A DNA stretch of 64,000 nt from positions 7,804,840 through 7,868,839 of the forward strand of contig OZ036007.1 of the NCBI GenBank assembly GCA_964035015.1, written 5' to 3'. The position numbers were made by a program, and so were the translations under genes. The notes beneath the pieces are model-generated. The model did no database searches and was not told where the DNA came from. It saw only the letters and a program-made list of their open reading frames with translations. Below are positions 43-52,127 of this stretch, piece by piece. This DNA is from Corallium rubrum. Its lineage: Eukaryota > Cnidaria > Anthozoa > Scleralcyonacea > Coralliidae. The stretch's first letter is position 1; every line of letters starts with the position of its first letter.

Positions 43-778
<736 letters not shown>

Positions 779-835
779 TCGAGTGAAATGCCCAATATTG
801 CTAAATATATATATATATATATTGGTAATATAAGG

Positions 836-1103
836 GAAATTGTAACGTTAACAAGGGGCCAAACGGTATTGTTTCAATTTGAAACGAGCGCCGTTTCTTC
901 GCTCAAAAGTCGCCAATTCAATCTTTACACACAATTAAATCTTCGTCAAGTGAAGCTAAGAACTCCACAGTGCTTTTCCGATCGACCATTACGCTGACAA
1001 ACCCCAACAACGCGACGTTTGAACGAAGAAACGGCGCTCGTTTCAAATTGAAACAATACCGTTTGGCCTTAGTAACGTTACAGTTTCCTCTTAGCAACGT
1101 ATT
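836..1103. mobile_element. foldback MITE with ~75-bp inverted repeats
   Basis: Left arm about 836-915 and right arm about 1015-1103 are near-perfect inverted repeats with termini like GGAAATTGTAACGTTA. The loop of ~100 bp has no coding sequence. No target duplication was found by eye. Confidence 0.75.
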
Positions 1104-1148
1104 AGTTTCCCGCGTGAAACGTGTGGCCTCAAATTACGCGTGTCCAAT

Positions 1149-1183
1149 GGTGAGAGGCAGCGGCCTAACAGCAAGTACCACGT
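1149..1183 (-). repeat. fragment of 5S-derived SINE
   Basis: The segment GGTGAGAGGCAGCG and the following ~20 bp match the head of the 5S-derived SINE family seen in full at 12.4 and 15.7 kb. It lies 32 bp upstream of the first visible exon of copy A. Confidence 0.55.
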
Positions 1184-1214
1184 ACAATAAGTTAATATTG
1201 TCCCCCGAATTAAG

Positions 1215-4200
1215 GTGAATGCTTGGAGCTTTATAACAAAAACAAGCCATGGGAAGACGTAGTGAATACTTGGAAGCATTATTCCACACACAATAACAAA
1301 ATTGACTGTGAAAAAGACAATGGAAAGTGGGTAGAATTCAGAAGCTATCTGGAATACATCAACAAAACCAAAGAAGAGTGCAATGGAGAACGTTTGATCT
1401 GGGACATACCATATAGCTCGGTAACCATTGATCATCTCATTGGAGAAGACCCTGAGAATTGGAAACGATGTCTGGTTGCACTCGACCCCCCAGACTGCCA
1501 GCAAGCACCGCAGTCACGCCCCAATCACCTTGGCAACGGTGAAAACGTTGTTCCTTTGAGCTACGACTGGACTCTTCCTCATTTTCCTTCTCAATTAGAA
1601 CAAAGATGCGTGTTACGAATCAGGTATAAATCTTTTTCTTTAATTGAAACAGGACCGGTTCTTACTGAATTTTCCCGAAGTTGAAAACAAAACAAACAAA
1701 CTATGGTTGTTTAATAATAGCGTGCTGCGTAGGCAGTGTAGAAACAACAATCGAAATTAGTAAGGTTAGATGTACTGCCGAAACAGAGAACGTAGGAGTC
1801 TAACGTTTCGAGCGAAGGCCCTTCGTCAGAGAGAAACGGGGGCCTTCGCTCGAAACGTTAGACTCCTACGTTCTCTGTTTCGGCAGTATATCTAACCTTA
1901 CTATATTTCTATGGTTTAAACCGAGTATATGGATACCTGAGTGATAAAGTCACTGCCGAATTTGGCTATTTATGCACCCGAGACTTAAGGTGCTGTTATA
2001 CGATGCGATTTTTCTTGCAACTTGCAACAAATTTACATATGGATAAAAAATCGCAAATTGCAGAAAGGGGGTTACACGTTCAGCAACTTGCGATTTTTGT
2101 TGTAAATTGCAGCAAAAAGTAGAACCCATCCAACTTTTCTTGCAACTTGCAACACGGCAAAAATGACAAAATCGCAAGTTGCTACGGGGTGTTACACGAT
2201 GCGAGTTTTTATGCAATTTACAACATTCAGTGATTTGTTGCAAGTTGCAAGAAAAATCGCATCGTGTAACAACACCTTTAAGGCCATGTTATACACGGAG
2301 CAATTCTCTTTGGAACACAACGGCGTTGCATTGCAAGTTACAATGGAAATTGCGTCGGGTAACACCCCATGTTTGCAGCTAGTCTCGCAACAAAAAATTG
2401 TGCTGCGAGTTGCAGAGAAAGTTGCAGATTACGTTGCAGCTTCTACTTTAGCAAAAGGTTTGTATAAATATATATTTAAAGTTTGGCAAGTTTGATTATA
2501 AAGACAAAGTTTGTAAAAATGTAAAACCGGTTAGCCTACTGAGAAATGCAATAAAAAATTACTATTTTCATGTATATTTACATATCCAGTTAAATTATTT
2601 TTTTTCAGATACAACATCTCCACAAACGATTACAATCCAGCGACTACATTTGCAGATTCAAACGGCGCAGAGTAAGTACACATACACTCACGGGGGCATG
2701 CTCCCCCGGGAAATTTTGAAATGGAGAGTCACTGAAATGCCATTTCCTGGCTTTTGGAGGAAGATTTTACTGACTCTAAAGGTTAAAAAACGTCATATAA
2801 AATACTCAAAACACGCAAACGTCACATAGATACTCAAAATGCATACACTCAGTAGATTGAATACACTGTTTACAGTTTATTTCCTGACACAATTGATATT
2901 GCATCAGTTTTGTAGTTACATGTCTGTTGTTTTATATCAAGGGGGGGGGGAGCCGCGGCTTCCTGCATGCAGTTGAACTTATATTCTCATAATATTATAA
3001 ATGTCTTTACGATAAACTGACTGCAAGGTTTGCAATTTGGAAAGATGTCTGTGTTTCTACGTTCACTATAGCATCCCAAATCATTAAATATTTAATATTT
3101 GAAGCTAGTTTGGTGACTTCCAAAATGTCCCAGTATTGCTAAAATGATTGTAGTGTCTGTATTGAAGTCAATCTCAAGCAACAGTTCTCATCTTTTGGGC
3201 GTTGACGTCGTCCTGAAGACGTACAAATGCTCAAAGTGGCGTTGTATAAAGAACGAGGACGACGTTGAGTTTACCCTTGGGATTAAAAATTGTTCATTTT
3301 CTTTGTTTTTCAAAAAAATTATTTTGTTTAAAGGGCATATGACTCGAAAATTAAGTTTATCTTATTGAAAAGAACATTTAAAATGATAAAATAACATCTT
3401 TTTCAGTTTTTGGTTACCTTGCTCCGTTTTTGAGATATTCCAGTTTGTTAGTTTCAGAAATTGCCGCTTGATGTTAGTAATAATTGTTAGTTGTTTGCTG
3501 TTAGAAGGTTGTGGGTTCGAGTCCCGCTTAGAGCTCAGAGTTTTTCTGAGTATTACTAACTAACACAGCTTGTACAGCAAACAACTAACAATTATATTCC
3601 AGTTTGTTTGACATGCAAATGACACAACTTTTTACGTCACACGTGCATAATGAGTATTATGAGTTACCGAGAGAAGGTTACATATCTTTGCTATTGTGAA
3701 ACAAAGTCACTTGGAATTCTACATGTTTGGTGTTGTGGGTAGAAACACGCACAAGCTTCCATTGGGTTAAGCTCATGTTTTCATAATAGCAAAGACATGT
3801 AACCTTTTCTGACAACTCATTATGCACATGTGACGTAAAAAGTTGTCTCATTTGCATATCAGACAAGCTGGATTATCTCAAAAAAAACGAAGCAAGGAAA
3901 CCAAAAACTGCAAAATATGTTATTTTATCATTTTCAATGTTCTTTTCAATAAGACAAACTTAATTTTCGAGTCATATGCCCTTTAAAGGACGTCGTCGTT
4001 GACATTGATGTGGTGTTACCACAAATTACAGAAATTACAGAAATTACAAAATCGAGCAGCCAGAGTAATAAGTGGAGATAATTATGAAATTCGTTCGACA
4101 GATATTTTAAAAAAATTGAATTGGTATCCACTAAATTATTACCGACTTGAGCAGTTGCTGTTGTTAATGCACAAAATACTCAACAATGATGCGCCTAAAG

Positions 4201-5310
4201 CTATTATGGAGCTGTATCAAATTTCAGAAAACCAGGTTTACAATCTTCGAAGCAACAATAATATGCTAATGTTGTCAAAACCCAGGTCAAATGCAATGAA
4301 ACGCAGCTTTAGTTATGAAGCTGCCAAGATCTGGAATACTCTGCCATTACATCTTAAGAACACTTCCCTTACTATAACTAAGTTTAAAACTAAACTCAGG
4401 GAGGTTTTTAAGGATGAAAACTGTACTATTTTAAATAACTTGAAGTACTAGCAATGATTTTTCCCTTCCATTTTAATAATTTTAATAATTTTTAATAATT
4501 TTAACAATGTTAGAATGTAAATAGTGTTTTAGTTAGATAGTTTTAGTCGTAATTAAGCAAACTGTTTTTAAGTCTTTTAATAGTTAGTTCTACACGGCCC
4601 TATGAAAATCAACATTTTATAGTTTCTTTTTACTCTTGGATTTTATTGTATTTGTAACTCACTTAAGTTGATAGGCTACCGTGTTTAAATATAGTTCAAT
4701 AAATAAATAAATAAATAAATAAATTCTCGCTTGTATTAGTTTATATTTACCAAAAGTCTAAATCATATTTTCAGCAAATCTCCAATCGTAAACGATCCAG
4801 AAGTGGAGATCGAAAAGGATGGAAAGAAAATTCCTCTTCAACTGGCCATCAACACCGCTCAGTTTGGTCGAACCTTCCAGGACCGTTCTCACGTATTTAA
4901 ATTTATTCCGAGGGAAGAACACTTCAAAGACGAAACTGTTTACAACCTAAATGTACGAGGAAAGCGAGGGAATATTGTCCAGGCTTATCCAGCTGTTGAA
5001 TACGATTTCGCTCCAAACAGACTCAAAATAAAGTCAAGCGATTACGTGCATATCCAGTGGACAGGTAACAGACTTTTTCTGTAATTCTTATATGTGCCAC
5101 CACCATCACCACTATCACCACCATCCTCATCATCATCTTCAAAATCGACATCCTCCTCCTCGTTATCATCCTCATCATCGCCACGATCACCATCACCATC
5201 AAAATCAATCTTCTCCTCCTCCTCATCATCACCACCACCACCATCACCACCATCGCCATCACCACCACCACCATTACCACTATCACCATCATCATCAAAA
5301 TCAACCTCAC

Positions 5311-5342
<32 letters not shown>

Positions 5343-6729
5343 CCACCACCATCACCACCACCATCATCATCATCATCCTCCTCATCATCATCATCATCAT
5401 CATCATCACCATCACCATCACCATCACCATCACCATCACCATCACCATCACCATCACCATCACCATCACCACCATCACCACCATCACCACCATCACCACC
5501 ACTCACCATCCTCATCAAAATCAACCTCACCATCATCATCATCATCACCACCACCACCACCACCATCACCACCATCACCACCATCACCACCATCACCACC
5601 ACCATCACCACCATCATCACCACCACCACCACCACCATCACCACCATCACCACCATCACCATCACCACCATCACCATCCTCTTTATCATCTTCAAAATCA
5701 ACATCCTCCTCCTCGTTATCATCCTCATCATCGCCACGATCACCATCACCATCACCACCATCACCATCCTCATCAAAATCAATCTCCTCCTCATCGTTAT
5801 CATCATCATCACCACTATCAAGACCACCACAACCACCACCCTCATCATCACCATCATCACCACCACCACCACCATCACCATCATCACCACCACCATCCTC
5901 ATCATCATCAAAATCAACCTCCTCATCATCACCACCACCATCACCACCACCACCACCACCAGCTATAATTACAATTCTTATTTCTGTTCAGGTTCCAACA
6001 CAAATCCGAAAAAAAATGCTGGAGAAGGGCGGAAACGTACGTAAATAAATTCGTAGGTGGCAAGCAGGCAGGCAGGCAGGCAGGCAGGCAGGTAGGTAGG
6101 TAGGTAGGTAGGTAGGTAGGTAGGTAGGTAGGTAGGTAGGTAGGTAGGTAGGTAGGTAGGTAGGTAGGTAGGTAGGTAGGTAGGTAGGTAGGTAGGTAGG
6201 TAGGTAGGTAGGTAGGTAGGTAGGTAGGTAGGTAGGTAGGTAGGTAGGTAGGTAGGTAGGTAGGTAGGTAGGTAGGTAGAACGGCACAGTAACATTTCGA
6301 GTTTTATAAAATCAAAATCGATATACAATGACAGACATCATTTTCAATCTATCTTTTACAGAAACAGACAGAAGTAATATCGTTGAAATGGCAGCTCCGG
6401 ACAAGAGTTATCCTTTCCTCGGTTCACAGTCTACTATGTTTGACAATGCCAAAGTAATTCATGCTTTGGACGGTAAAAAGACAAAAACTGGTGCTGACAT
6501 AGCAATCGCTATGGCAACTGCTGGCTACTTTCCTACAGCGAGCGCCGTAACATCTCCTTTCGCTGTTCAAGGATGTAACCGCGATCAGGCAGCAGAACTC
6601 GACTGTTTTCCTCCGTCGTACAGTGGGTTGTTATTACAGTTTGTAAAGCCGGGAACATATTATTACATGTGTTCCCGCAATAATAACTTCACAAATCGTA
6701 GCCAGAAAGGACGCCTTACTGTGGGTTAA
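1215..6729 (+). CDS. DD3-3-like secreted protein, copy A (3' exons only)
   Basis: Five exons join in frame: 1215-1623, 2609-2671, 4775-5064, 5992-6036 and 6362-6729 (TAA). They encode the last ~391 residues. All junctions are AG/GT and the 63- and 45-nt exons equal those of copy B. Recognisable family motifs are [16 protein letters not shown]-x-[43 protein letters not shown] and [18 protein letters not shown]. The family is named after a Dictyostelium developmentally regulated protein and is, as far as I recall, also found in cnidarians; its biochemical role is not established. The upstream exons, including the signal peptide, must lie left of the window. Introns hold a TTAA foldback, a LINE fragment, a CAC/CAT array and a TAGG array. 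No frame lesion is visible, so the gene looks intact. Confidence 0.88.
1758..1903. repeat. palindrome with hammerhead-like core boxes
   Basis: A near-perfect inverted repeat. Each arm carries GACGAAGGGCCTTCGCTCG followed by AAACGTTAGACTCC, the arrangement CTGANGA - short stem - GAAA. The same motif recurs at 14,048. Such motifs often mark debris of Penelope-like elements, which is an inference here. Confidence 0.6.
1989..2279. mobile_element. foldback repeat (TTGCAAGTTGCAA family)
   Basis: Arms at about 1989-2030 and 2236-2279 are inverted copies (GGTG-TGTTA-ACGATGCGATTTTTC), with further shorter inverted TTGCAAGTTGCAA units between and to the right up to ~2450. The sequence is non-coding and intronic. 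Similar TTGCAAC-rich palindromes occur at 37.1 and 47.1 kb. Confidence 0.65.
2683..2960 (+). mobile_element. hAT-like non-autonomous element, copy 1
   Basis: The sequence from GGGGGCATGCTCCCCCGG to the G-run and AGCCGCGGCT matches elements at 8.9-9.2 kb (reverse), 51.6 kb and 56.8-57.05 kb. The best-preserved termini (GGCTACGTCCCTG at 9.23 kb, GCTACACCACTG at 57.05 kb) resemble hAT ends. No coding capacity. Confidence 0.6.
3327..3987. mobile_element. TTAA-ended foldback element, copy 1 (with nested SINE)
   Basis: Arms start TTTAAAGGGCATATGACTCG and end with its reverse complement. Almost the whole length can pair. A 144-bp insert (3450-3593) interrupts the left arm. Lies in the second visible intron of copy A. 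Confidence 0.8.
3450..3593 (+). mobile_element. tRNA-like SINE insert with 15-bp target duplication
   Basis: The insert is flanked by perfect direct repeats ATATTCCAGTTTGTT (3435-3449 and 3594-3608). It holds a box B-like GGGTTCGAGTCCCG at about 3514 and internal inverted repeats TTGTTAGTTGTTTGCTGT. The same B-box region and tail occur in the minus-strand SINE at 41.2-41.4 kb. Confidence 0.75.
3999..4451 (+). pseudogene. reverse transcriptase C-terminal fragment (LINE)
   Basis: About 150 residues are open up to TAG at 4449-4451. The motif [12 protein letters not shown], then [19 protein letters not shown] and a WNTLPLHLK segment, are characteristic of the region C-terminal to the polymerase domain of CR1/L2/Jockey-type LINEs. 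The catalytic palm motif is absent and there is no proper ATG, so this is a dead fragment in a host intron. Confidence 0.82.
3999..4724 (+). mobile_element. 5'-truncated non-LTR retrotransposon (3' end)
   Basis: The C-terminal end of a reverse transcriptase ORF is followed by ~250 bp of 3' UTR and an (AATA)n tail at 4698-4724. This layout is typical of a 5'-truncated LINE insertion. The left boundary is uncertain. Confidence 0.8.
5095..5962. repeat. (CAC/CAT)n trinucleotide array
   Basis: ~870 bp of mixed CAC, CAT and CCT triplets with higher-order ATCACC hexamers. It begins ~30 bp after the splice donor at 5065 and ends ~30 bp before the next acceptor, so it fills the intron. All long open frames here are repeat artefacts. 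Confidence 0.95.
6061..6279. repeat. (CAGG)n(TAGG)n tetranucleotide array
   Basis: A short CAGG block runs into ~47 TAGG units within the last intron of copy A. Every long frame through it is a Tyr-Leu-Pro-Thr artefact. Confidence 0.95.
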
Positions 6730-6850
6730 AGGCACACATGACAACCTAACAAGTATTTAATCTCAGTTCGTCTATAAGAACTGCTTCCTTCTCCTTGTTT
6801 TACTCTTGTGTATCACTGAATATATCTCATGTAGTCTAGCTGAAATCATT

Positions 6851-6856
6851 ATTAAA
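6851..6856 (+). promoter_or_regulatory. possible polyadenylation signal (ATTAAA) of copy A
   Basis: ATTAAA occurs 122 bp after the copy A stop codon. No canonical AATAAA was seen between the stop codon and the foldback element that starts at 6896. Confidence 0.35.
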
Positions 6857-6895
6857 TAAGGATATCTAATCGCCATTTTTGTCGTGTCATTTTCT

Positions 6896-7320
6896 TTAAA
6901 GTGCCTATGAAGTGAAAATTATTACTGACTTAAATGAAAGAACTCTTAAAACGACAAAGTAACATCTTTTGCAGATCTTCGTTTCCGTGCCTCGTTGTTG
7001 AGATATTTGAATTTTTTTGTTATGCAAATTAAACACTTTGACGTCACACGTGTATAATGTGGTTATCAGAGAAGGTTCGGTATCTTTGCTATTATCAAAC
7101 GAAATTAGTTAAAAATCTGTATGTCTAATGCTGTATGCGAAATAGACGCACATATAGAACTTTCTCCGATAACTCATTATACACGTGTGATGTCAAAGTG
7201 TTTAATTTGCATATCAAAGAAACTAAAATATCTCAACAACGAAGCACGGAAACGAAGATCTGCAAAAGATGTTATGTTGTAGTTTTAAGAGTTCTTTCAT
7301 TTAAGATAATAATAATTTTC
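6896..7320. mobile_element. TTAA-ended foldback element, copy 2 (right end lost)
   Basis: The left arm begins TTTAAAGTGCCTATGAAG. The right arm matches its complement until about 7320, where the terminal ~18 bp are replaced by unrelated sequence. Closest relative in the window is the copy at 63.2-63.7 kb. Confidence 0.75.
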
Positions 7321-7779
7321 GCAAACAATACGCGTGAGTCAGGCGTTCACTCGGGATATTGGCAAAGTGCAGAGGTGCTTGGGTAAAAGATACTGATTGT
7401 AGATTGTAGTGTTATGGCAGCAATCGCAAAATCGAAGCCTCTCTCCTCGGTAGATCAGGCTCTATATACCGCGCTAGCAAAAGTGGGAGTGGGAGGAAGA
7501 TCAGATGGAAGGTTGAATGTGGTGCATACTTCTGCACACTGGTGAACATATTTACGAACTGGTGAACTATTTCGAAATCCACTAACAATGTGCAAGAACA
7601 CTTTGATCAAAAGGCAAAGCTGTTCAACTTTTTGTCCAACTCCAAAAGAAAAAAGAGCAAAGAGCTTACAACATGCCTCATGGCCTTACTCCATCACAAG
7701 TAAATGTGCAAAAACGCAAAATCGTGACACCCAAAAAACCCAAAAAAAGCCCAGGCCGAAGCCTAGACTCGGTACACGA
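7321..7779. other. intergenic, nothing recognised
   Basis: No exon, RNA gene or repeat family recognised. Short open frames lack codon structure or family resemblance. Confidence 0.4.
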
Positions 7780-19800: not shown

Positions 19801-22800
19801 AAAAATCCCTAGAATATGCTATGTAACTCGAGTGAAATGCCCAATATTACTTCTAATAAACCCAATTCTCTCCTGGCATTACCACCTTAATGTATACAGA
19901 ACTCGCGATCAAGCTCTCGGCAACGGCCTCCGTGGCTCAGTGGTCAGAGCATTGCACTAGAATCGCAAGGTCGTGGGTTCAATTCCTGCCGGAAGGCCTG
20001 TGTAGTTGCATTTTTCGCAACTGGTCCCGGTTTGGTCTTAAAATGTATATATTCTACACTCGAATTTTCCTTCACCAAAAATCCCTAGAATATGCTATGT
20101 AATCGAGTGAAATGCCCAATATTACTTCTAATAAACCCAATTCTCTCCTGGCATTACCACCTTAATGTATACAGAACTCGCGATCAAGCTCTCGGCAACG
20201 GCCTCCGTGGCTCAGTGGTCAGAGCATTGCACTAGAATCGCAAGGTCGTGGGTTCAATTCCTGCCGGAAGGCCTGTGTAGTTGCATTTTTCGCAACTGGT
20301 CCCGGTCTGGTCTTAAAATGTATATATTCTACACTCGAATTTTCCTTCACCAAAAATCCCTAGAATATACTATATAAACACAGGCGGCCTTTTTCTATTT
20401 CTTAAATATTAAACACTTCTTGCCACAGGTCTGTTCACAGCCGATCAAAAACTCAAAGGTACTACCAGCAAATACACAAGGCAAAACGCAGCGGGTACTC
20501 AGTATGGTTATGAATGTCCTGAAGAACGTGATTACTACCCTTACTGGCATCCAACTGACTGGATCGATATTGCTGTGTTGGCTCACAACACATCATTCTG
20601 TCATTACTACAGGAAAGAAAGCTTCAACGTGAAAGGAAAAGGTATAAAAATCACACAATTTAATGTTTTTCGCATGGCGTTTATGTTCACGTGTATTTTC
20701 ACGTACAAGCGGGCTCCACGTAGAGCGAGTTTAGCACCCTCAAGGATCTCGGGAATGAAGAGCTTAACATTCGCGGTAAAGACCTGCCTAATATGAACGA
20801 GATTTGTGATTGGCTATAAGTAACCATACCATACCACACACCACACCATACCATACCACACACACCATACCACACCATATCATATCACACACCACACCAT
20901 ACCACACACCACACCATAGCATACCACATCACACCACACTATACAACACTATACCATACTATACTATACCACACCACACCACACCACACCACACCACATC
21001 ATACCACACACCATACCACACACCAAACCAAACCATACCACACACCACACCATAGCATACCACATCATACCATATCATACCACACACCAAACCATACCAT
21101 ACACCATACCATAGCATACCACATCACACCATACCATACCACACCACACCATACCACACACCAAACCATACCACACACCACACCATACCATACTATACCA
21201 CACCATACCATACCATACAATGCCACAAACCACACCATACCACACACCACACCATACTATACCATACCACCACACCATACTATACCACAAACCACCACAA
21301 CATACCATACCATACCATACCATACCACAAACCACACCATACCACACACCAAACCATACCACACACCACATCACACCATACTATACCACACCATCATACC
21401 ACACACCACACCACACCACACCGCATACCACACCATACTACAAACCACCACACCATGCCATACCATACCATACCATACCATACCATACCATACCATACCA
21501 TACCATACCACACACCACCACAACATACCACCACACACACACCATCACACATACAACAACCACACAACACAACACAACACAACACAACACAACACAACAC
21601 AACGCAACGCAACGCAACGCAACGCAACGCAACGCAACGCAACGCAACGCAACGCAACGCAACGCAACGCAACGCAACGCAACGCAACGCAACGCAACGC
21701 AACGCAACGCAACGCAACGCAACGCAACGCAACGCAACGCAACGCAACGCAACGCAACGCAACGCAACGCAACGCAACGCAACGCAACGCAACGCAACGC
21801 AACGCAACGCAACGCAACGCAACGCAACGCAACGCAACGCAACGCAACGCAACGCAACGCAACGCAACGCAACGCAACGCAACGCAACGCAACGCAACGC
21901 AACGCAACACAACACAACACAACACAACACAACACACACCCCACCACTCGTCACAACACGTGCACCATACCACACACCACCACAAATACAAAGAAATGCG
22001 ATTTGATTTCCTTCAGTTCCAAGACAGATATTAAACGTCTTATATATTTACCACAATTCTGTATTCCAAAATATATCCATCCACCTTCATTGCTAAATCT
22101 TTAAATCATTCACACTAATCATATACATTTCGTCTTGTTTCCTTACTTCAATTTCTCAAAAAAAAACCTAGGAGAGTGTCTGCACTATTATCCAACAAAA
22201 AGCCAAGGTTTCCAGCATTGGTCAACTCACAACAACAAGATTGACTGCGAGAAACATAAAGGCATATGGGTCGAGTTCAGCAACTTCTTAGAAGAAAGCC
22301 CACTGCACAGAACCGAAAGAGAATGCAAAGCAGCGAGTACAGAATCACATCGTTTAATATGGGCTATCCCTTATCGATCAGAAAACGTCGATAATTTAAA
22401 AATGATAGACGATCAATTGGGATCGCTTTATAGATGCTTGGTAGCCCTTGATGCACCAGAATGCAAAAAGGCCCCGTACACACGTTCAAACCACCTAGGG
22501 AACGCCCATAATGTGGTGCCGCTAAATTACACCTGGGTCTTGCCTTACTTTCCTTCTCATAAAGTTCAGCGATGTGCTTTAAGGATCAGGTGAGTTAATT
22601 ACATTTTACGTCATTAATTAAAGTGTCTATGAAGTGAAAAATTCGTTGGCATTTTTGTTGTTTTATTCTGCAGAGGAACGTGATAGGAGCACTCACTGAA
22701 AATTTCAAGAGAATCTGATGCGTAGTTTTCGCGCTATCAACTCTCAAAAGTTCCCATGGATAGTTTGTTTTGGGGAAATTTGGGCTTCTTGGTAACAATG

Positions 22801-27090: not shown

Positions 27091-27096
27091 CCAATC
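27091..27096. repeat. left target-site duplication CCAATC
   Basis: Direct repeat with 35086-35091, immediately outside the TAC/GTA termini. Confidence 0.8.
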
Positions 27097-27167
27097 TACG
27101 GTGGCCCCTATCGGCAAACACAACAATAAAATTACCTGAACAGAAGACTAAGTTATCTTATCACAAA

Positions 27168-27488
27168 ACAAAATTACCTGGGCACAACACAGAATTAGTT
27201 GTGCATAACACAGAATTAGCTGTGCACAACACAGAATTAGCTGTGCACAAAACAAAATTAACTGTGCACAACACAGAATTAGCTGTGCACAACACAGAAT
27301 TAGCTGTGCACAAAACAAAATTATCGGTGCACAAAACAGAATTAGCTGTGCACAACACAGAATTAGCTGTGCACAAAACAAAATTATCGGTGCACAAAAC
27401 AGAATTAGCTGTGCACAACACAGAATTAACTGTACACAACACAGAATTAACTGTGCACAAAACAAAATTACCTGTGCACACAAAATTT
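27168..27488. repeat. subterminal 21-bp minisatellite, left array
   Basis: About 15 units of the type ACAGAATTAGCTGTGCACAA, each with the palindrome GTGCAC. The right-hand array at 34.7-35.0 kb is the same repeat inverted. Confidence 0.93.
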
Positions 27489-27599
27489 TATCTACACTAG
27501 TTCCCATGTCCTTGACAGTTTGACCGAGTGTACGTTTGTATCCATGTTTTCCAGCATTCTACTGTCTTATTTTAAAAATGTATACTTAAGCTAGCAGTT

Positions 27600-29725
27600 A
27601 TGTTCTGTGCTTTTTGTCGGCAAAATCTTCCAGAAAACAGTGTGTTTTGTACAAAATGTGGAAAGGAGTTAGGGACAAGCAATCGTGATAATCAAAGATC
27701 AACGACAACCTCGATGCCAAGAACAAACGCCATGTCTGTTAATAATTCCACTGCATCGTTAACTTCGTCTTCGTCGTCTTCGGGGAAAAGATGTCTTCCT
27801 TTTGAGAGCTTTTACGCCAAGAAAAGCAATGAAAGGTCGTCACACTTTAAAGTCAGTAAAAAATCAGGTAAAAAGCGTAGTGATGAGCCAGACGATACTT
27901 TTGTAAACGTTGGTATGATGAAGCATGAAAAAGGCGAAACTAAGCCGATGAGGGGAAAGACATTGCCCTTAAAAGTAAGGAAGGACGTTGGATATGACGA
28001 ATTTCTTGAAGCAGCATTGGTTAAACGTAGAGCCTATGATCGGTCATTTGATAGAAGTATAAAGTGGATGTTAGTTTACCCAGATGGAAAACTTGCTAGA
28101 ACATTGCCAGGATCTACTGAAAGTTTTACTGTAAGGAAATATAAAGAAGATATTGGAAAATCATACTCGAGAATAACAATTTACCTTTGTCCTTTGTTTC
28201 CTACTGATGAAAATACTGACAATCCTGGCTCTACTGATAACGACTTTTTCAATGGTGATTATGCCGATTATGAATCATTAATACCTATTGATGTCCTTGA
28301 AGAAATGCTGCCAGATGACACATTACTTGAAAATGTCTTCAGTGAAACTGATGGGAATTCATGTACAATTGCAACCTCAGCCAATTCTTCATCCTCACCA
28401 GGAGTTGAGTCCTTGACCAGTACTTGTTCCTTGCAAAACACGATGCAGGTTAGTGGTAACACTGCTGCTAGTAATCCTCCCATAGTAAATATTGATGATA
28501 CTTGTGATGAAGAGGTCTTGGAGTGGTCTTCCCTAAGAGATGCCCTCAAGTCAAAGTTGCATGTCATTCTATCTGTTAAAGTTGTTGACCGACTTAAATT
28601 GGTTGTTAGAAGAAGAAAGATTTGGTCAGACACAATGGAAAAGCTTTCTTTATTTTTCCCCCTAATAATGGTGGATTGCCAAGCAAAGAGGTGACATTCC
28701 AGCCTTCAAAGTGTTCTTTGGATGTGAAATTTATTGGTGAAGAAGGTATTGATCAAGGTGGACTTACTAGGGACTTCTTCTCATCTGTCTTTGATGCTGC
28801 CCGTACACATGTGATGCAAGGCAATACAGAAAAGCAGTACTTTACCCTTCAGCACAATTGTCTTGCACTTGAGGCCAGGGAGTATTTCTTTTATGGTGTG
28901 TTGGTAGGTCTTGCACTTTTACATGGTTGTCCTGGTCCTCGGAACTGGGCTCCCAGTCTCGCTGCATATATCTTGCAAATGGAGGTAAAAGAAGCATCAA
29001 TACATGAAGTACCTGACTACGAGGTTCGAACAAAGCTTTGCTGCTTGTTGAAATGTGAGTCAGATGAACAATGGAAAGAACTTCTGTTGGACTTCCCAGA
29101 AAGATTTGATGCAGGATATACAAAGGGGCAAATTTCTTTTGGAGAAAAGAACCGTTTTGTTGCAAAGATCATCTACCACTTTGTCATTAGCGTTTGTCAT
29201 GAGGAAATTCAGCAACTCGCAGAAGGTTTAAGGAAAGTTGGTGTCCTTACATTGCTGGAGAGATTCAAGGAGGATGGTATGGAGGAGCTGATCCCATCAA
29301 CGAATCTTTCATCATCAGAAATCTTGGCTTTCTGGCAGGTGATTTATTCCCCTGAAGGTTCCAACAACAGAGTAACAGAGGAAGATATTGTCTACAACTT
29401 CTCCTTCTTTCTTGATGAAGTTGCACAGGGAAGAGTTAATGGCATACTAACCCATGATGTTGAATCTGGAGAAGCTGCAAGTACAAGCATTTCTCTACCA
29501 GATGTTATGCAATTTTTGACAGGGGCACGGTATTTCTGTCAGTCTCTGTCACAAGCAAGTATTGAATTTGATCATGAAGCAGTTGAAGGGAGGCGGATAG
29601 AGGTCAGTACTTGCTCATTAGTCATCAAGTTTCCTTGTAATTTGAGGTACACTGGATCTTCCAAAGATTTTGTCAGGAATCTTTCAGAAGATATTGTCTG
29701 TTCACCTGGATTTGGAAAGGCATAA
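27600..29725 (+). CDS. HECT-type E3 ubiquitin ligase carried by the transposon (one frame break)
   Basis: The first frame runs 27600-28694 and the second is open through 29725. Homology crosses from one to the other near 28,640-28,660, so one base is missing or a -1 shift is used. Order: zinc ribbon at residues 3-20 (C-x2-C-x10-C-x2-C), a Ser-rich stretch ~45-62, a folded segment ~150-200 (RSFDRSIKWMLVYPDGK), an acidic stretch, then HECT. HECT marks are LKLVVRRRKIW, FIGEEGIDQGGLTRDFF, LEAREYFFYGVLVGLAL and the catalytic context EVSTCSLVIKF, with the Cys codon at 29612-29614, 36 residues from the C-terminus (SPGFGKA). A HECT ligase forms a thioester with ubiquitin on that Cys before transfer to a substrate. 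The closest recalled relatives are G2E3-like HECT proteins. The start ATG lies ~110 bp inside the left repeat array. The frame break could mean decay, sequencing error or recoding. Confidence 0.85.
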
Positions 29726-30884
29726 GCTGATAAAACTGTACAGTAGTAACTTTCTAACTTATACATGTTCAATTGCTATGACAAATCTTATATGTGAGGT
29801 ACCAGCTATATAGATACAGACTCACTGGTTAGTTAACATTACTGTATTTTGTATCTACTATAGACCCCTTGCACATGACGTCAAAATGGGCATCTAGGGG
29901 GACAACTTCAATGTTCCCACTAAGATGGCAGTTTTTACATCATGTGCAAGGAGTCTGAACTTAAGATATATTTATTTCAAATTCAAGTGGAGATGTTGTG
30001 TTACATTTGCAAACTTTTATAAGTTACATTAATTCAGACAATTATTATATAATTATTTGAAATTTGGGCTTGTCCTTTGTAATTTTTGCTATTTGAAGTT
30101 AACCTTTTATCATGTGTCACATTTTTAAGTTGGACTACCAGTAGGTATGATATACATGTAATATGATCTAATATAATTACTCGGGCTACCTGTGGTAGCC
30201 GAGTCTAGGTTTCGGCTCTGTTATTTTTATTTATTTATTTTCTATTTTTGTGTCGACAAATTGCAATTCTTGCGCAACATTTCCCAACAGCCTTTGCGAC
30301 CCTGAAGCGTGCTCAAATGATTTCATCATGGCTGATTTTCATGCACGAGTGACGAGTTTTTTCTTCTCCTGACGGACTTTGGTTGTGTTGTTCGAAGTGA
30401 ATTTGTGTTTTAATGATAAACACGCTCACAATGCTTACAATAGACTATAGTAGACTTGGGTTGGTCGGCGATCTCGATAACCGTACGCTGAAAATGTGTA
30501 GTACTCGATCAACTCTCGATCAATGTGTTCTCGATCAATTTTATACATGTGTTATTAAATTGTACTGAAAAATGTTGCTCAAGTGCTGTAAATCAAAGAA
30601 CAAAGAAAGTTGATAAAGCCAACTTGCAAGTGAAAGGTAAACATGCTATGTTTTACATCTTCATCGATTCGAGGTTGACATTTAGCCGAACTGACTTGTG
30701 TCTGTAAATGCTGTTATGTAAATGTATTCAGGTTTAAACTGTATTAATATTTGTGGTTTGCTTCATTTTTGCTTGTATTGTTTATTATTGATTTATTGTA
30801 CTGATGTCTTGCAAATAAAAGTCGATTCTATTCAACAGTTTATACATTATTTTCATCAAGTGTGTATTATTGTTTGGGTACACC
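29726..30884. other. 3' flank of the HECT gene inside the transposon
   Basis: Non-coding. At 29,867-29,957 a short foldback (CTTGCACATGACGTCA and complement). From ~30,178 a block starting ACTCGGGCTACCTGTGG has a possible inverted partner near 32,090, which may mark a nested element. Confidence 0.5.
30814..30819 (+). promoter_or_regulatory. candidate polyadenylation signal (+)
   Basis: AATAAA ~1.1 kb downstream of the HECT stop codon; the only good candidate before the minisatellite. Confidence 0.35.
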
Positions 30885-31960
30885 AATAATTGGCCACCAT
30901 TTCAATGTTTCGGTACACCAGTATGGCTGCCATTTCATAGGACATGCTATGTAATCGAGTGAAATGCCCAATATCACTTATAATATGGCCACCATTTCAT
31001 TGTTTTGGTCCACCAGTATGGCCACCATTTCACTGTTTTGGTACACCAATATGGCCACTTAGTATTTCATTGTTCTGGTACACCAATATTGGCTACCATT
31101 TCATTGTTTTGGTACACCAATATGGCCACTTAGTATTTCATTGTTTTGGTACACCAATGTGGCCACCATTTCATTGTTTTGTACACCAATATGGCCACCA
31201 TTTCAATGTTTAGGTACACCAGTATGGCTGCCATTTCATAGGACATGCTATGTAATCGAGTGAAATGCCCAATATCACTTATAATATGGCCACCATTTTA
31301 TTGTTTTGTACACCAGTATGGCCACCATTTCACTGTTTTGGTACACCAATATGGCCACTTAGTATTTCATTGTTTTGTACACCAATATGGCCACCATTTC
31401 ATTGTTTTGTACACTACTATGGCCACCATTTCATTGTTTTGGTACACCAGTATGGCCACCATTTCATTGTTTTGGTACACCAATATGGCCATTATTTCAT
31501 TGTTTTGGTACACCAATATGGCCACTTAGTATTTCATTGTTTTGGTACACCAATATGGCCACTTAGTATATATTTCATTGTTTTGGTACACCAATATTGA
31601 CCACCATTTCATTGTTTTGTAGACCAATATGGCCACTATTTCATTGTTTTGTAGACCAATATGGTCACCATTTCATTGTTTTGTACACCAATATGGCCAC
31701 CATTTCATTGTTTTGGTACACCAGTATGGCCACCATTTCATTGTTTTGGTATACCAGTATTACCACTATTTCATTGTTTTGGTACACCAGTATTACCACT
31801 ATTTCATTGTTTTGGTACACCAGTATTGCCACTATTTCATTGTTTTGGTACACCAGTATGGCCACTATTTCAATGTTTTGGTACACCAGTAATGGCCACC
31901 ATTTCAATGTTTTGGCAGACCAGAATGGCTGCCAAATCAATGTAATGGTACACCAGTATA
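30885..31960. repeat. 33-bp minisatellite with higher-order duplication
   Basis: ~30 units of CCACCATTTCATTGTTTTGG plus TACACCAATATGG. The array includes two copies of a tRNA-SINE tail (30943-30990 and 31244-31291) 301 bp apart, so a block of several units plus the SINE tail was duplicated together. Confidence 0.9.
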
Positions 31961-32601
31961 GCCGCCAGGATTTTCTCTATGATGAATATTCCACTACTAC
32001 AGTCAATTGACTGAAAGTTGCATCAAATTCAACCATTAACTCCAAACAGCACTGCTGTTGTTATATTATTTTGCAAGGCGCCAGCCCACAGTAGCCCGAG
32101 TTCACGCCTAGTGGGTGTCTTGTTATAATTATATTATTATATAATGTTATATTATATAATATTATTATATACTTATAGTATTATGTATTTGCTTAAACAA
32201 CAGTTATTATATATATTCTTTATTTTCTGTAATATGTTAAATGTTCCCATTTTTTCATGTGTAATGACAGTGTGTGTGATGTGTCTGTTACTTAAGTACA
32301 TCAAGCAAGTAGTTTTTCAAATTCTTTGTGAAAATGTACTTTTCTCTGAGATTTTCAACTGATATCATTACTGACTGCAGAGGATACATCACAAGGTACA
32401 GCATGTATAGGCACACAGCCCCCCGAAAACTAAATATTCCCAAATTTTAAGCCTGAATTACAATAATATTGTTACAGGTCATGTAGCAAATTTGCCCCTG
32501 ATTTTGCCCAAATTTTCTACGTGCATGTGCTCTGATTTTCTTTGTGCAGGATTATTAGTGGCAGCACTGCCACCTTGTGCAACTACTGTATTTCCTCACA
32601 T
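31961..32601. other. transposon interior, nothing recognised
   Basis: AT-rich, with a possible inverted partner of the 30,178 block near 32,085-32,100 (CCACAGTAGCCCGAGT). No open frame of note. Confidence 0.4.
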
Positions 32602-32698
32602 AACTCATTCCTGTCCGGGGGCTTCCCCAGAGGTGAATAAAATCGTCTGGCGTTAGCCAGAATAAAATACTAAAGACCAATTCGGACAAGAAAGAGTT
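32602..32698. mobile_element. short MITE (~97 bp), copy 2
   Basis: AACTCATTCCTGTCC ... GGACAAGAAAGAGTT with the palindromic core TCTGGCGTTAGCCAGA. Nearly identical to copies 1 and 3. Confidence 0.8.
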
Positions 32699-32717
32699 AA
32701 TTAAAGAGATAGTTTAT

Positions 32718-32815
32718 AACTCATTCCTGTCCAGGGGGCTTCCCCAGAGGTGAATAAAATCGTCTGGCATTAGCCAGAATAAAATACTAAAGACCAATTC
32801 GGACAAGAAAGAGTT
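32718..32815. mobile_element. short MITE (~98 bp), copy 3
   Basis: Second near-identical copy only 20 bp after copy 2, same orientation. Its core reads TCTGGCATTAGCCAGA, one change from copy 2. Confidence 0.8.
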
Positions 32816-33187
32816 AAGCCCCCTGGTGACTTATTAATTTTGTGTCCTCAAAAGAGGAGCTTATTAGGGGGCTTAACAGAGGAAGGAGGGTTATTTAATT
32901 TTCTAAGTCAAAAAAAGGAAAAAACCCGTTGTTGTAGACAGACAATATATAGGTTTTTCACTTGAGGTGGTGGTGTGGTGTGTGCTTAAGAGGGGTGCTT
33001 GTTTTTTTACTTAATTGGGGGGGGGGGGGGGGCACTTCATATAAGAAATGGTAACTAAGGTTTTAGCAAAGACCTTGGCCGTAACAATCTGAGTTCGAAG
33101 AAAAACGATGCATCCAATTACATCGCGTGAACCCCCTAGATGAGGAGATCTGCTGTTGGGGTATTAAATGCTTTTCAATAAAATATG
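32816..33187. other. transposon interior with a small foldback and poly(G)
   Basis: Short inverted pair TTAAGCCCCCT / AGGGGGCTTAA at 32,814-32,879 and a G-run at 33,017-33,032. No gene seen. Confidence 0.45.
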
Positions 33188-33193
33188 TTTATT
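33188..33193 (-). promoter_or_regulatory. polyadenylation signal of the transposase gene
   Basis: AATAAA on the minus strand, ~65 bp beyond the transposase stop codon. Confidence 0.5.
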
Positions 33194-33258
33194 AAAAAAA
33201 AAGACCTTGGAAAGAAATATAATTACGTTTTGTTAAAAAATAAAAAGGGTAACTGAAA

Positions 33259-34470
33259 TTATTCTGGTTGTGCCTGTTCCAGCAGATTGTGGTACAATTC
33301 TATGGCCTCCCTCCAAGTATGTGGTGGAGCTAAGTTTAAGAATTCCATCACATATGCAAAATACTCCGAGTAGTCGTTGTCATTGTCTGGAGCTGTGCAA
33401 TACTCCTGCATGTCTTGCATTTCTTGTTCAGAAACTTGATATGCACAATTGTTTTCAGCCAAGAAATAGAGTTCATCTGGTCTACCAGCCACTGTGTCGT
33501 GTCTTGATGGTCGGATTGCGTGGGTATTCCAGTGGTCCTTTACATGATCAAGATCATTCTGGATTAGCTCTGAGAAACAAAACCATAGACATTCCTGGTG
33601 CATGACTGTTGTTTGAATGATACCTCGTTCACGCAAGTCCTTAAAAAAATCAACCCACCACTGGCCCCTGTTTCGACTAAAGAATGACCACCAGCATTCA
33701 ATACGTTGATTTGATGGTGACGTGCCATATCGATGAGCACGCAAGCCGGCAAATTCGTCGTTGTAGTTCTGGCGAAAATAACACTGCATCGCTGACATTA
33801 CTCCGTTCTCAGTTCCACAGTCAGTTTGGACAATTGTAGGACAACAGCCATGTTCTCTGACGCACTCTAAGAAATACTTGCCAATAACATATGGGTTGTT
33901 GTTTGTTCTGGTTACCCTCAGCCACATAATCCTACGGCTAAAGCCGTCAATGCAGCCGTGTATAGGGAACCCAAACGGTTTCAATTTGTCATGCCCATCT
34001 ACATGCCAACACCAGTTTGGTCCAGGGTTTACATATTGTCTGCGTTTGAATCGGTGATTTCGTCTCATGCTTGAACCAACTGGATCCATCTCACGAAGTA
34101 ATCTCTGAACGGTACTTCGTCGTGCATATATTTTGTATTTCAGACGGAGGCAATGCCACATGCTACGATATCCTTGTAAACACCCAGGACCATCTGCTTC
34201 GATTGCTATTGCCGCGCGAATTTGCTCCTCGTCTTCAGCAAAACGTTTTCGTTTTAAGCCATATTCTTGAAGTCTGCTCTGGAGTGTTCTCACACACATC
34301 TTAACTCCATGATGCTTTTCTAAGAATTGCAAAATTGTATCATATTGAAATCCTTTCCCGAAATAATAACGTATCAAGCCCTCTGTTGTTTCCAATGGAT
34401 AACCACAGTTAGCACAAAAATTTAGACAATTGTCTAGATTTGCCATGCAAATCTGGCAAGTATTTTCCAT
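33259..34470 (-). CDS. DDE integrase-type transposase (IS3EU-like)
   Basis: Single-exon 403-residue frame from ATG at 34470. Order: zinc ribbon C5-x2-C8-x10-C19-x2-C22, a helical DNA-binding-like region ~30-75, a second one ~95-130 (YRSMWHCLRLKY, RRSTVQRLLREMDP), then the integrase core. Catalytic acids are read as D158 (HVDGHDKLKPFG), D217 (VQTDCGTENG) and E258 (NQRIECWW), 59 and 41 residues apart, as expected for an RNase H-fold integrase. It would cut the transposon ends and join them to target DNA in the nucleus. The start codon lies ~215 bp inside the right 21-bp array. The frame is intact and all catalytic residues are present, so the enzyme may be functional. Similar integrase-core proteins are, as I recall, common in cnidarian and fish genomes. 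Confidence 0.88.
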   Translation of the reverse strand: MENTCQICMANLDNCLNFCANCGYPLETTEGLIRYYFGKGFQYDTILQFLEKHHGVKMCVRTLQSRLQEYGLKRKRFAEDEEQIRAAIAIEADGPGCLQGYRSMWHCLRLKYKIYARRSTVQRLLREMDPVGSSMRRNHRFKRRQYVNPGPNWCWHVDGHDKLKPFGFPIHGCIDGFSRRIMWLRVTRTNNNPYVIGKYFLECVREHGCCPTIVQTDCGTENGVMSAMQCYFRQNYNDEFAGLRAHRYGTSPSNQRIECWWSFFSRNRGQWWVDFFKDLRERGIIQTTVMHQECLWFCFSELIQNDLDHVKDHWNTHAIRPSRHDTVAGRPDELYFLAENNCAYQVSEQEMQDMQEYCTAPDNDNDYSEYFAYVMEFLNLAPPHTWREAIELYHNLLEQAQPE

Positions 34471-34685
34471 CTTTGGAGATGTTCGACAATGGTTGGTTTA
34501 GGCAAAATACACCATAAAACGCATACGACATTAGCTCCACCAAAAGTATTCAGACTAGAGGGCAATTTTGCTTTAACTAAATGTATGGCCGGCAATATTG
34601 TCAAGGACATTGGCACTATGGGTACCGTGAGCGTTAAAAGAATAAGAATTCAATGTTTAAATTAGTTTATTGTGCTAACTTTATG
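34471..34685 (-). promoter_or_regulatory. likely promoter/5' UTR of the transposase gene
   Basis: The 215-bp gap between the transposase start and the right 21-bp array contains no other feature. By position it must hold the promoter unless the array itself serves. No core promoter motif was recognised. Confidence 0.3.
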
Positions 34686-35015
34686 ATAGGTAATTTTGTT
34701 TTGTGCACAGCTAATTCTGTGTTGTGCACAGGTAATTTTGTTTTGTGCACAGCTAATTCTGTGTTGTGCACAGCTAATTCTGTGTTGTGCACAGTTAATT
34801 TTGTTTTGTGCATAGCTTATTCTGTGTTGTGCACAGGTAATTTTGTTTTGTGCACAGCTAATTCTGTGTTGTGCACAGCTAATTCTGTGTTGTGCACAGG
34901 TAATTTTGTTTTGTGCATAGCTAATTCTGTGTTGTGCACAGCTAATTCTGTATTGTGCACAGTTAAATTTGTTTTGTGCACAGCTAATTCTGTGTTGTGC
35001 ACAGGTAATTTTGTT
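34686..35015. repeat. subterminal 21-bp minisatellite, right array
   Basis: Inverted counterpart of the left array: GCTAATTCTGTGTTGTGCAC units, ~15 copies, running to the right terminal inverted repeat. Confidence 0.93.
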
Positions 35016-35085
35016 TTGTGATAAGATAACTTAGTCTTCTGTTCAGGTAATTTTATTGTTGTGTTTGCCGATAGGGGCCACCGTA

Positions 35086-35091
35086 CCAATC
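35086..35091. repeat. right target-site duplication CCAATC
   Basis: Direct repeat of 27091-27096. Confidence 0.8.
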
Positions 35092-38113: not shown

Positions 38114-40592
38114 AAAGTTGAAAGTTGAAGGAAAATGTTTGCCGTATTACCTCACCTTAATTACGTAGTCATTTTCACACAATTCAAAAAGTAGAAATGA
38201 GTGAAACTTGAGGTGAAGCTATGACCCGCTGTTTTTCACTTTTTCATTATAATAGTAATATACAATATATTACAACTCCTAATCTCAACTTATACGATGC
38301 GTGTTTTCGGCTCTTGATAAAATAAATCACTTTTGAACAGATTAAATTTGCTTTGTAATAACGGTGCATACGAAGTCTCAAATTTCAAAATTATTTTTTG
38401 TGTCATAAAAGCTGTATTTTACGCAATATTCAGATTATGCGAATTTACATTTTAAAAGTTGTTATTACAACGGATAATTTATTGAAAATGATGCTTTTTG
38501 TTCAAAAGATTATTTTCTGATTTAATATCGTGTTTTATCTCATAATTTAAGTGCTATCTTTTTTTCATGAAATATCTAGCGAAGAAAATTGTATTTTATA
38601 TAATAAAGTTATATTTTAGTTAAAATATTATTAATATCAATGCCCAATCTTTATTAGATCAGAACAAGTTTTTGATATATTCCGTCGTTCATTAAACGGC
38701 TCTTGGATATCTATTTATAAACGCCATGCCGCGTTGACAACCTGCTAAACAGACATTTTACCATTATTTATTTCTTTGTCATTAAGATTTCGAAATATAT
38801 GTACATATACCTTTAGGAGGCCGATGGCGATGATTGAAAAAAAAATTTCCATTAAATTAAATTAACGACAACGGTTTTGACAGACACTATCGACTGCGAC
38901 CACTATCGACTACGTTGTGATATCCTCGTGAATTCGTTTTAAAATATATTGCCGCTATTCTATAAGTCTTCTAAATGGTTTATGTTCTAAACATTTGCTC
39001 TAATTGTCCAGCAAAACGTGACAAGAAAAACAGGTGCCCTGAATATTTTTGGGTTTTAAGAGGGGGGCAAAGGGGAACACTTGTCACGAGTTCACAGATA
39101 CGTTTTTGGCATTTCACGAATCACAAAAAGTAAAATTACATCTTCACGACTTTTTCAACAGTTCAATCACGATTCACGGGACAATATTGCTCTAAATCAC
39201 GATTCACAAAGCAGTCAAAAATAGTCAATCACGGGTTCACGAAAATACTCTTCCCCCCCCTTTTTTTTTTAAGCTAAGTCATGTCGGTCACCCGTTTTTG
39301 AACAACTACGTTTCCTTCAAATAAAATAACTGTTAAAACCTTGCATTTCCTTTCTTTCGAACTTCCTTTACGTGTATTTCGGCCATTTTTTGTTAGTTTT
39401 TCAAGCTGGGCGCGTTACAAAAGTGTTCTAATGGAACCAAGTGTCACTTAATTAACATTTCAAATACGCCATGATTGTTATTGCGATTTGCAAATAAGAC
39501 GTTGAACAGAACTCTACGAATATTTACAAAGTCCACCTGCCTGTCGACGTCCTCGATCTGAGAAGGTTACAACTTGTTTTTATATTCCTCTTTGTTCTTA
39601 GAATTCTTACTACAACTTTCCTCACGCGTTCTTGCTGTTAACTGAAGGTAATGCTCATTTTACGCTTTTCTACGCATTTGTTATTTTGTAATATATTAAT
39701 ATAAAACAAAATTGTGTGTTTATTTCTTCGCAGTTTTAGTTTGTCTAGTTATAAGTAAATTCGATCAGCTTGTGCGAACAGTACTTTTTTTCTGACGACT
39801 ATAAAAATGCGTTTACAAACTTAAGGCTGATTTTTACTCCGGCTTTGTTGTTATACGTTACGTAAACCAGTATATGTATATATATATATATATATAATCT
39901 CTCTCTGGTGATTTGCCTAATGGCAGGGTTTTTTTCTCATGTTTCCATCTGTCTCTGTCCTGTGCCATCTGTTTCAGCTCTGTATAGCAAATCTTCTTCG
40001 ATCTCTTGGTCTTTTCCCATCCATTCTACCTTCAAATACCTCTATAGTAGCAATCCGTCGTGGTATATGCATCTGCTGCAAAGTGAAAAGGCAGTGGTAA
40101 ACTGGCAAACAATTTAGCAACAAATTACTGGCGTTTCGAGCGAATCTATTCGACTCAGTTCATCAGAGTAAAATGTGGTTGTTTACTTTTTGTCAGCTGT
40201 CATCGTTTCATCAAAAATACTTTTCCAAAAGAGAAATGTATAAATAAAAACAGTCGCTTAAGTTTAAGGTTCGGTATACTCAATCTCTGAACACAATACG
40301 GCGCGATAATTTGCCGATTTGGAATAGAATCAGGTCGCATCTGATACCAGTTATTCCGATAAAATCGTGCAGCGTTTTTTTGTCAATATTCTATTCTAAT
40401 GTGACACGCTGTGCTGACGTAGCGTCCTTATTGTTGTCTCAAGATAAATTTCGTTATTTTCTGCCAAAGTTTTCAGTTTTATTAAGCTGAAAAATCAACA
40501 CTACATTACAAAAAATAAGTATTTTTAATTTTCATCCCGTGAAGTCTTTATGTCCATTTTACTTGTTTATTTTATCATTAGATAAAATCTTC
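38114..40592. other. intergenic region upstream of the GABA-B-like gene
   Basis: AT-rich. Contains a small (AT)n at 39,877-39,895 and a repeat end CTGGCGTTTCGAGCG...CATCAGAG at 40,129-40,172 with hammerhead-like boxes on the minus strand. Otherwise nothing recognised. The receptor promoter should lie in the last few hundred bases. Confidence 0.45.

Positions 40593-52127
<11,535 letters not shown>

Follow-up and report, generated by a model that had tools for sequence, protein, structure and literature searches.

A two-gene DNA transposon of Corallium rubrum with IS3EU-type ends and a facing HECT-type ubiquitin ligase gene

IS3EU (GingerRoot) transposons have TA..TA ends and a target-site duplication that is usually 6 bp (PMC10045372), and the fungal members have TAYGG..CCRTA ends, a 6-bp duplication, and a transposase and an alpha-kinase gene in opposite orientations with a TET/JBP gene in between (PMC12730594). 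The term HECT occurs in neither text. Here we analyze a stretch of 64,000 nucleotides of Corallium rubrum (the window: assembly GCA_964035015.1, contig OZ036007.1, positions 7,804,840 to 7,868,839), in which an element at 27097-35085 resembles IS3EU in its TACGG..CCGTA ends, its 6-bp duplication and, as far as the integrase core shows, its DDE integrase-type transposase, but differs in carrying a HECT gene (PMC10045372, PMC12730594). Our reading, to which we give a probability of roughly 0.8, is that the window holds one copy of a two-gene transposon with IS3EU-type ends, composed of an rva_4 DDE transposase and a facing zinc-ribbon HECT-type E3 ubiquitin ligase, and that this pair is an old standard layout in this genome rather than a one-off capture.

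The comparison can be extended to other systems. Like the fungal TET/JBP elements, the coral element holds an accessory enzyme within its bounds and places this second enzyme gene opposite the transposase; theirs are an alpha-kinase and a dioxygenase, whereas here we find a HECT ligase whose zinc ribbon is common to it and the transposase (PMC12730594). The cellular ligases E6AP and Rsp5/NEDD4 match the coral proteins in the N-lobe, and the C-terminal cysteine block of one relative in this genome (L045) falls at the last positions of the HECT profile; unlike them, the ligases here lie within transposons, start with a zinc ribbon in the lineage that we call A, and show distant similarity. E3 ligase activity in a protein of transposon origin is known from the RING of RAG1 (RAG1/Transib), but there the RING is part of the recombinase, whereas here the HECT protein is separate. 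Our literature search, which left out Repbase Reports and Dfam, where an entry could exist, returned no report of HECT cargo for IS3EU. Nor did the papers searched include any that joins a HECT domain with the terminal inverted repeats of a DNA transposon, and those that pair IS3EU with ubiquitin include, judging by title, none on such an element.

The window element is 7989 bp long and runs from TACGGTGGCC at 27097 to GGCCACCGTA, which ends at 35085; its features are collected in Table 1. The outer 84 bp of the two ends are inverted without a mismatch, well over the 30 bp that terminal inverted repeats exceed in fungal TET+ IS3EU members. The complete arms, each 387 bp long, show 91% complementarity and contain arrays of 21-bp units. 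An earlier sequence-only reading of the window had described a bounded element with inverted TAC...GTA termini and a perfect 6-bp duplication, and we recover both. The IS3EU features which that reading had named (6-bp duplications and TAY ends) agree with the published definition (PMC10045372, PMC12730594), and the ends and duplication of the element fit IS3EU.

Table 1. Positions of the transposon and its parts in the window.
Feature	Position	Strand	Evidence or comment
Target-site duplication, left copy	27091..27096	.	CCAATC, 6 bp
Left terminal inverted repeat	27097..27483	.	84 outer bp in perfect inverted match with the right end; 21-bp units in tandem at 27162-27480
HECT gene, first frame	27600..28694	+	CxxC..CxxC zinc ribbon at the N-terminus, conserved N-terminal region, first part of HECT domain
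HECT gene, second frame	28622..29725	+	HECT domain, Pfam HECT E=7.3e-10; active-site Cys codon 29612-29614 (EVSTCSL)
33/66-bp tandem repeat	30982..31967	.	about 28 units, between transposase and HECT gene
Transposase, 403 aa	33259..34470	-	rva_4 integrase core, Pfam rva_4 E=1.8e-29; stop-free frame
Transposase catalytic residues D158 / D217 / E258	33997-33999 / 33820-33822 / 33697-33699	-	
Right terminal inverted repeat	34699..35085	.	21-bp units at 34691-35020
Target-site duplication, right copy	35086..35091	.	CCAATC, exact

The two genes converge. As the sequence-only reading had it, the transposase is intact and of the DDE integrase type: its frame is open throughout and the three catalytic residues are invariant in an alignment of relatives (10 rows). 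Its N-terminus carries cysteines at residues 5, 8, 15, 19 and 22 in a CxxC..CxxC pattern. For the HECT domain, the window gene scores 39.4 bits against a curated Pfam cut-off of 23.9, and its zinc ribbon matches Pfam Zn_Ribbon_1 at E=9e-5, under the cut-off of that model. The same reading had pointed to a preserved catalytic-cysteine context, and the cysteine codon is indeed intact, but it did not state that the window gene is split by one frame break into two overlapping frames.

We then ask what other copies look like in the same genome (474 Mb, 312 contigs). Searching with the terminal repeat gives four full-length places (the window, L009, L010 and L011), each with both genes and each at its own site, with exact 6-bp duplications of CCAATC, GTTTTG, AATACC and CTTATG; the sequence-only reading had proposed looking for just such copies. 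These four differ from one another at 0.05-0.14% of sites in the HECT region and at 0-0.08% in the transposase, and a fifth, decayed copy of the family lies on C56. The frame break is common to three of the four. In the remaining one, L011 on another contig (C15), the HECT gene is a single open frame that starts at ATG and spans 708 codons, and the transposase is one residue short in an otherwise invariant Trp-Trp pair.

The more general question is whether transposase and HECT gene go together across the genome. With the transposase as query, 103 places were scored out of 1273 first-look candidates. With the intact HECT as query, 63 of 538 candidates gave 76 matches, and merging these leaves 57 gene loci; all of these counts are lower bounds. 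Taking a distance of at most 12 kb as adjacency, 28 of the 57 HECT loci adjoin one of the 103 transposase places, compared with a mean of 0.32 and a maximum of 4 in 2000 random placements, and the two genes are convergent in every one of the 28. Two of the other 29 HECT loci were read (L046 and L047). In both, the convergent transposase belongs to another rva_4 lineage, which we call lineage B; the one in L047 is broken and scores slightly under the cut-off. When the genome was searched for this lineage (84 of 1346 candidates scored), a lineage-B transposase was found within 12 kb of six of the 29, five of them convergent and the sixth adjoining an element with its own HECT gene.

The converse count is that 75 of the 103 transposase places have no HECT match within 12 kb, and three of these were read. 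L062 is complete (60-6874), has the duplication GGAATC and carries a convergent HECT gene of 657 codons; in L061 the HECT gene, also convergent, is diverged and in pieces. The convergent gene of L063, at 4222-5367, encodes AHTC close to its end, and this end matches the HECT model weakly and under the cut-off (E=0.006); compared with ten HECTs of the same genome the gene has no similarity at E<=1e-3, and it may represent a HECT that arose separately, perhaps a second independent acquisition.

Nine elements are complete with both ends in hand (the window, L009, L010, L011, L012, L045, L048, L060 and L062), and all nine contain the convergent transposase-HECT pair between TACGG..CCGTA ends, with a duplication that is exact in six and has 5 of 6 letters equal in three. 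In the eight besides the window copy the perfect inverted stretch ranges from 24 to 279 bp, and where it is 24 bp, in L010 and L011, near-perfect arms continue beyond it. Of 30 loci, 28 have TACGGTGG upstream of the transposase at a distance of no more than 1.5 kb. Some copies are damaged, with one stop codon in the L048 transposase and a frame shift in the L012 HECT gene. The central claim of the sequence-only reading, a transposon with a HECT gene of its own, is supported, and diverged families share the layout. That reading had named copies without HECT at the same position as evidence to the contrary; the nine include none, and L061 and L062, which were missed at first, turned out to have a convergent HECT.

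How far have these HECT proteins diverged? HECT frames that stay open over at least about 700 codons occur in seven lineage-A families (family 1 through its C15 copy, L045, L048, L056, L057/L060, L058 and L059) and in the lineage-B locus L046. Between the eight families that we compared, identity is 23-50% for HECT and 25-65% for the transposase. All 9 proteins that were aligned retain the putative catalytic cysteine column, P0122 from the protein database and the highly divergent L061 and L062 included, and a TC motif is present in all 17 HECT-bearing loci that were scanned; from its position, this cysteine is presumed to be the catalytic residue of the C-lobe. The HECT domain model also scores above its cut-off for L011, L045, L046, L047 and L048, and the nearest solved structures by sequence are the HECT domains of E6AP and Rsp5 (best PDB match E=1e-10). 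Across the eight families the transposase and HECT distances are correlated (r=0.63, as high in 200 of 40320 permutations); such correlations are rough, because the matrix represents the C20 transposase by a fragment of 187 residues and the HECT of L012 by three joined pieces. Separately, sub-threshold matches to CUE, a ubiquitin-binding domain, lie in the middle of the L048 HECT protein (E=0.005) and of P0121, a HECT relative from the protein database (E=0.02).

The N-terminal heads of the two proteins give a further link between them. Lineage-A HECT proteins start with a CxxC..CxxC zinc ribbon, a layout found also in P0121, and a zinc ribbon is likewise present at the N-terminus of the transposase in family 1, C30, C255, C82a and C82b and absent in C1_44. 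In the C255 element (L060, 83-7428) the inverted repeat of about 650 bp (83-716 and 6815-7428) is 95% identical, both start codons lie inside it, and residues 1-40 of the transposase and the ligase are identical. The HECT gene of L060 thus begins within the transposon end. This arrangement suggests a route by which the two proteins came to have one common head, and more broadly how two proteins of one element could gain the same targeting head from a zinc ribbon inside inverted ends.

Several observations weigh against the two-gene reading. Transposition does not require HECT in cis, given that three of the four copies of the window family carry a broken HECT gene and are nearly identical. Within the 12-kb threshold, 23 of the 57 HECT loci have no scored transposase, L047 being counted among them, and the HECTs of L061 and L062, which Pfam does not match even at E<=0.1, were recognized solely through other HECTs. 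Without lineage B the distance correlation falls to r=0.42, with 192 of 5040 permutations as high. The ratio of nonsynonymous to synonymous substitution rates (dN/dS) is not firm: members of one family differ by too few substitutions (pairs range from 0 to 0.86), and between families the synonymous rate is saturated in most pairs. The structure models have low confidence (mean pLDDT 41 and 36), too poor for use. Finally, the protein database holds 978 relatives of the transposase, the named ones from corals (Dendronephthya, Oculina, Montipora, Porites), versus 3 of HECT; the full 708-residue query found one relative and residues 310-708 found the three. This shortfall may reflect gene calls made without intron handling, or a pairing that is rare outside the Corallium rubrum genome. 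Scans of viral contigs and genome contigs gave no relatives, and PHROGs gave no match.

The constant place of the HECT gene in very different families suggests that elements of this kind control proteins by ubiquitin tagging. In the mechanism that we propose, the common zinc ribbon would bring ligase and transposase to one place, most simply to the repeated units in the element ends, and the ligase would then ubiquitinate the proteins assembled there. Because young copies have spread with a broken HECT gene, the ligase would either be supplied in trans or be dispensable for transposition as such. If it is active, two main targets seem equally plausible, each somewhat short of an even chance: the transposase complex, through turnover after strand transfer or a limit on copy number, and host silencing or repair proteins; a target of some other kind is unlikely. 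We also offer, tentatively, a broader proposal in which the zinc-ribbon HECT gene would be a second standard gene throughout a clade of IS3EU-like elements and would have diversified along with the transposase. The ends would encode both heads, homogenization of the ends would keep both tuned to the same sites, and a ligase targeted to the ends would run the life cycle of the transposon.

The alternative that survives best is that HECT mainly attacks host silencing proteins, such as chromatin or small-RNA factors, in the manner of the transposon-borne demethylases of fungi. HECT ligases are by nature host regulators, which favors this idea, and the spread of HECT-broken copies suits a factor acting in trans. 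There is a parallel in fungal IS3EU and other transposons that carry a TET/JBP dioxygenase, which the author reads as an anti-silencing gene (PMC12730594). On the other side, no host target is known, and the zinc ribbon held in common with the transposase points instead to the element ends or to a common partner. On balance we regard this alternative as possible but rather less than an even bet.

It is unlikely that HECT is a long-ago passenger that is now decaying. The frame break in the window family, the L012 frame shift and the decayed C56 copy are what such decay would look like, but the long open frames with their cysteine kept, in seven families and in L046, speak against it, as does the compact L048 element, which at 4797 bp has just 161 bp between its two gene matches. 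Even more doubtful is the idea that the broken frame of the young copies still functions through programmed frameshifting. The break falls within a stretch of pyrimidines and does not differ among the three copies that spread, with both frames open elsewhere; C-rich slip sites are, however, inefficient, and the C15 copy, P0121 and L056 cross the region in a single frame, which makes the unbroken HECT look ancestral. The last alternative, that a single trapping event placed a host HECT gene between two unrelated ends, as the sequence-only reading had allowed, or that transposons favor insertion beside a host HECT family, we consider barely credible and, in its trapped-once form, reject: the HECT loci with no scored transposase nearby could be host genes, but the duplications flank both genes, all 28 adjacent pairs converge, the L060 start codon lies in the transposon end, and the arrangement is constant among families with HECT proteins of just 26-50% identity.

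If the two-gene reading is right, a ubiquitin ligase belongs to the regular gene set of DNA transposons in a known superfamily. They would then offer a defined system for how a transposon controls its transposase or host silencing through ubiquitin, and some multicopy HECT genes of animal genomes may be explained.

A few smaller observations complete the description. The intergenic space of the window family varies in length by copy, and the C15 copy aligns there with large gaps. In the window, 32600-32817 consists of a 117-bp unit present twice in tandem whose ends appear by eye to be inverted, perhaps a small nested element. The left flank of the C82 element (L012, 1400-1670) has repeats of about 21 bp that resemble related ends, perhaps an older related element that served as the insertion target. 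Elsewhere in the window, the open reading frames at 1223-1684 and 22135-22593 encode similar proteins with a common 11-residue stretch, a repeated gene, and the frame at 40539-41018 contains a stretch reminiscent of the ligand-binding part of a GABA-B-like receptor.

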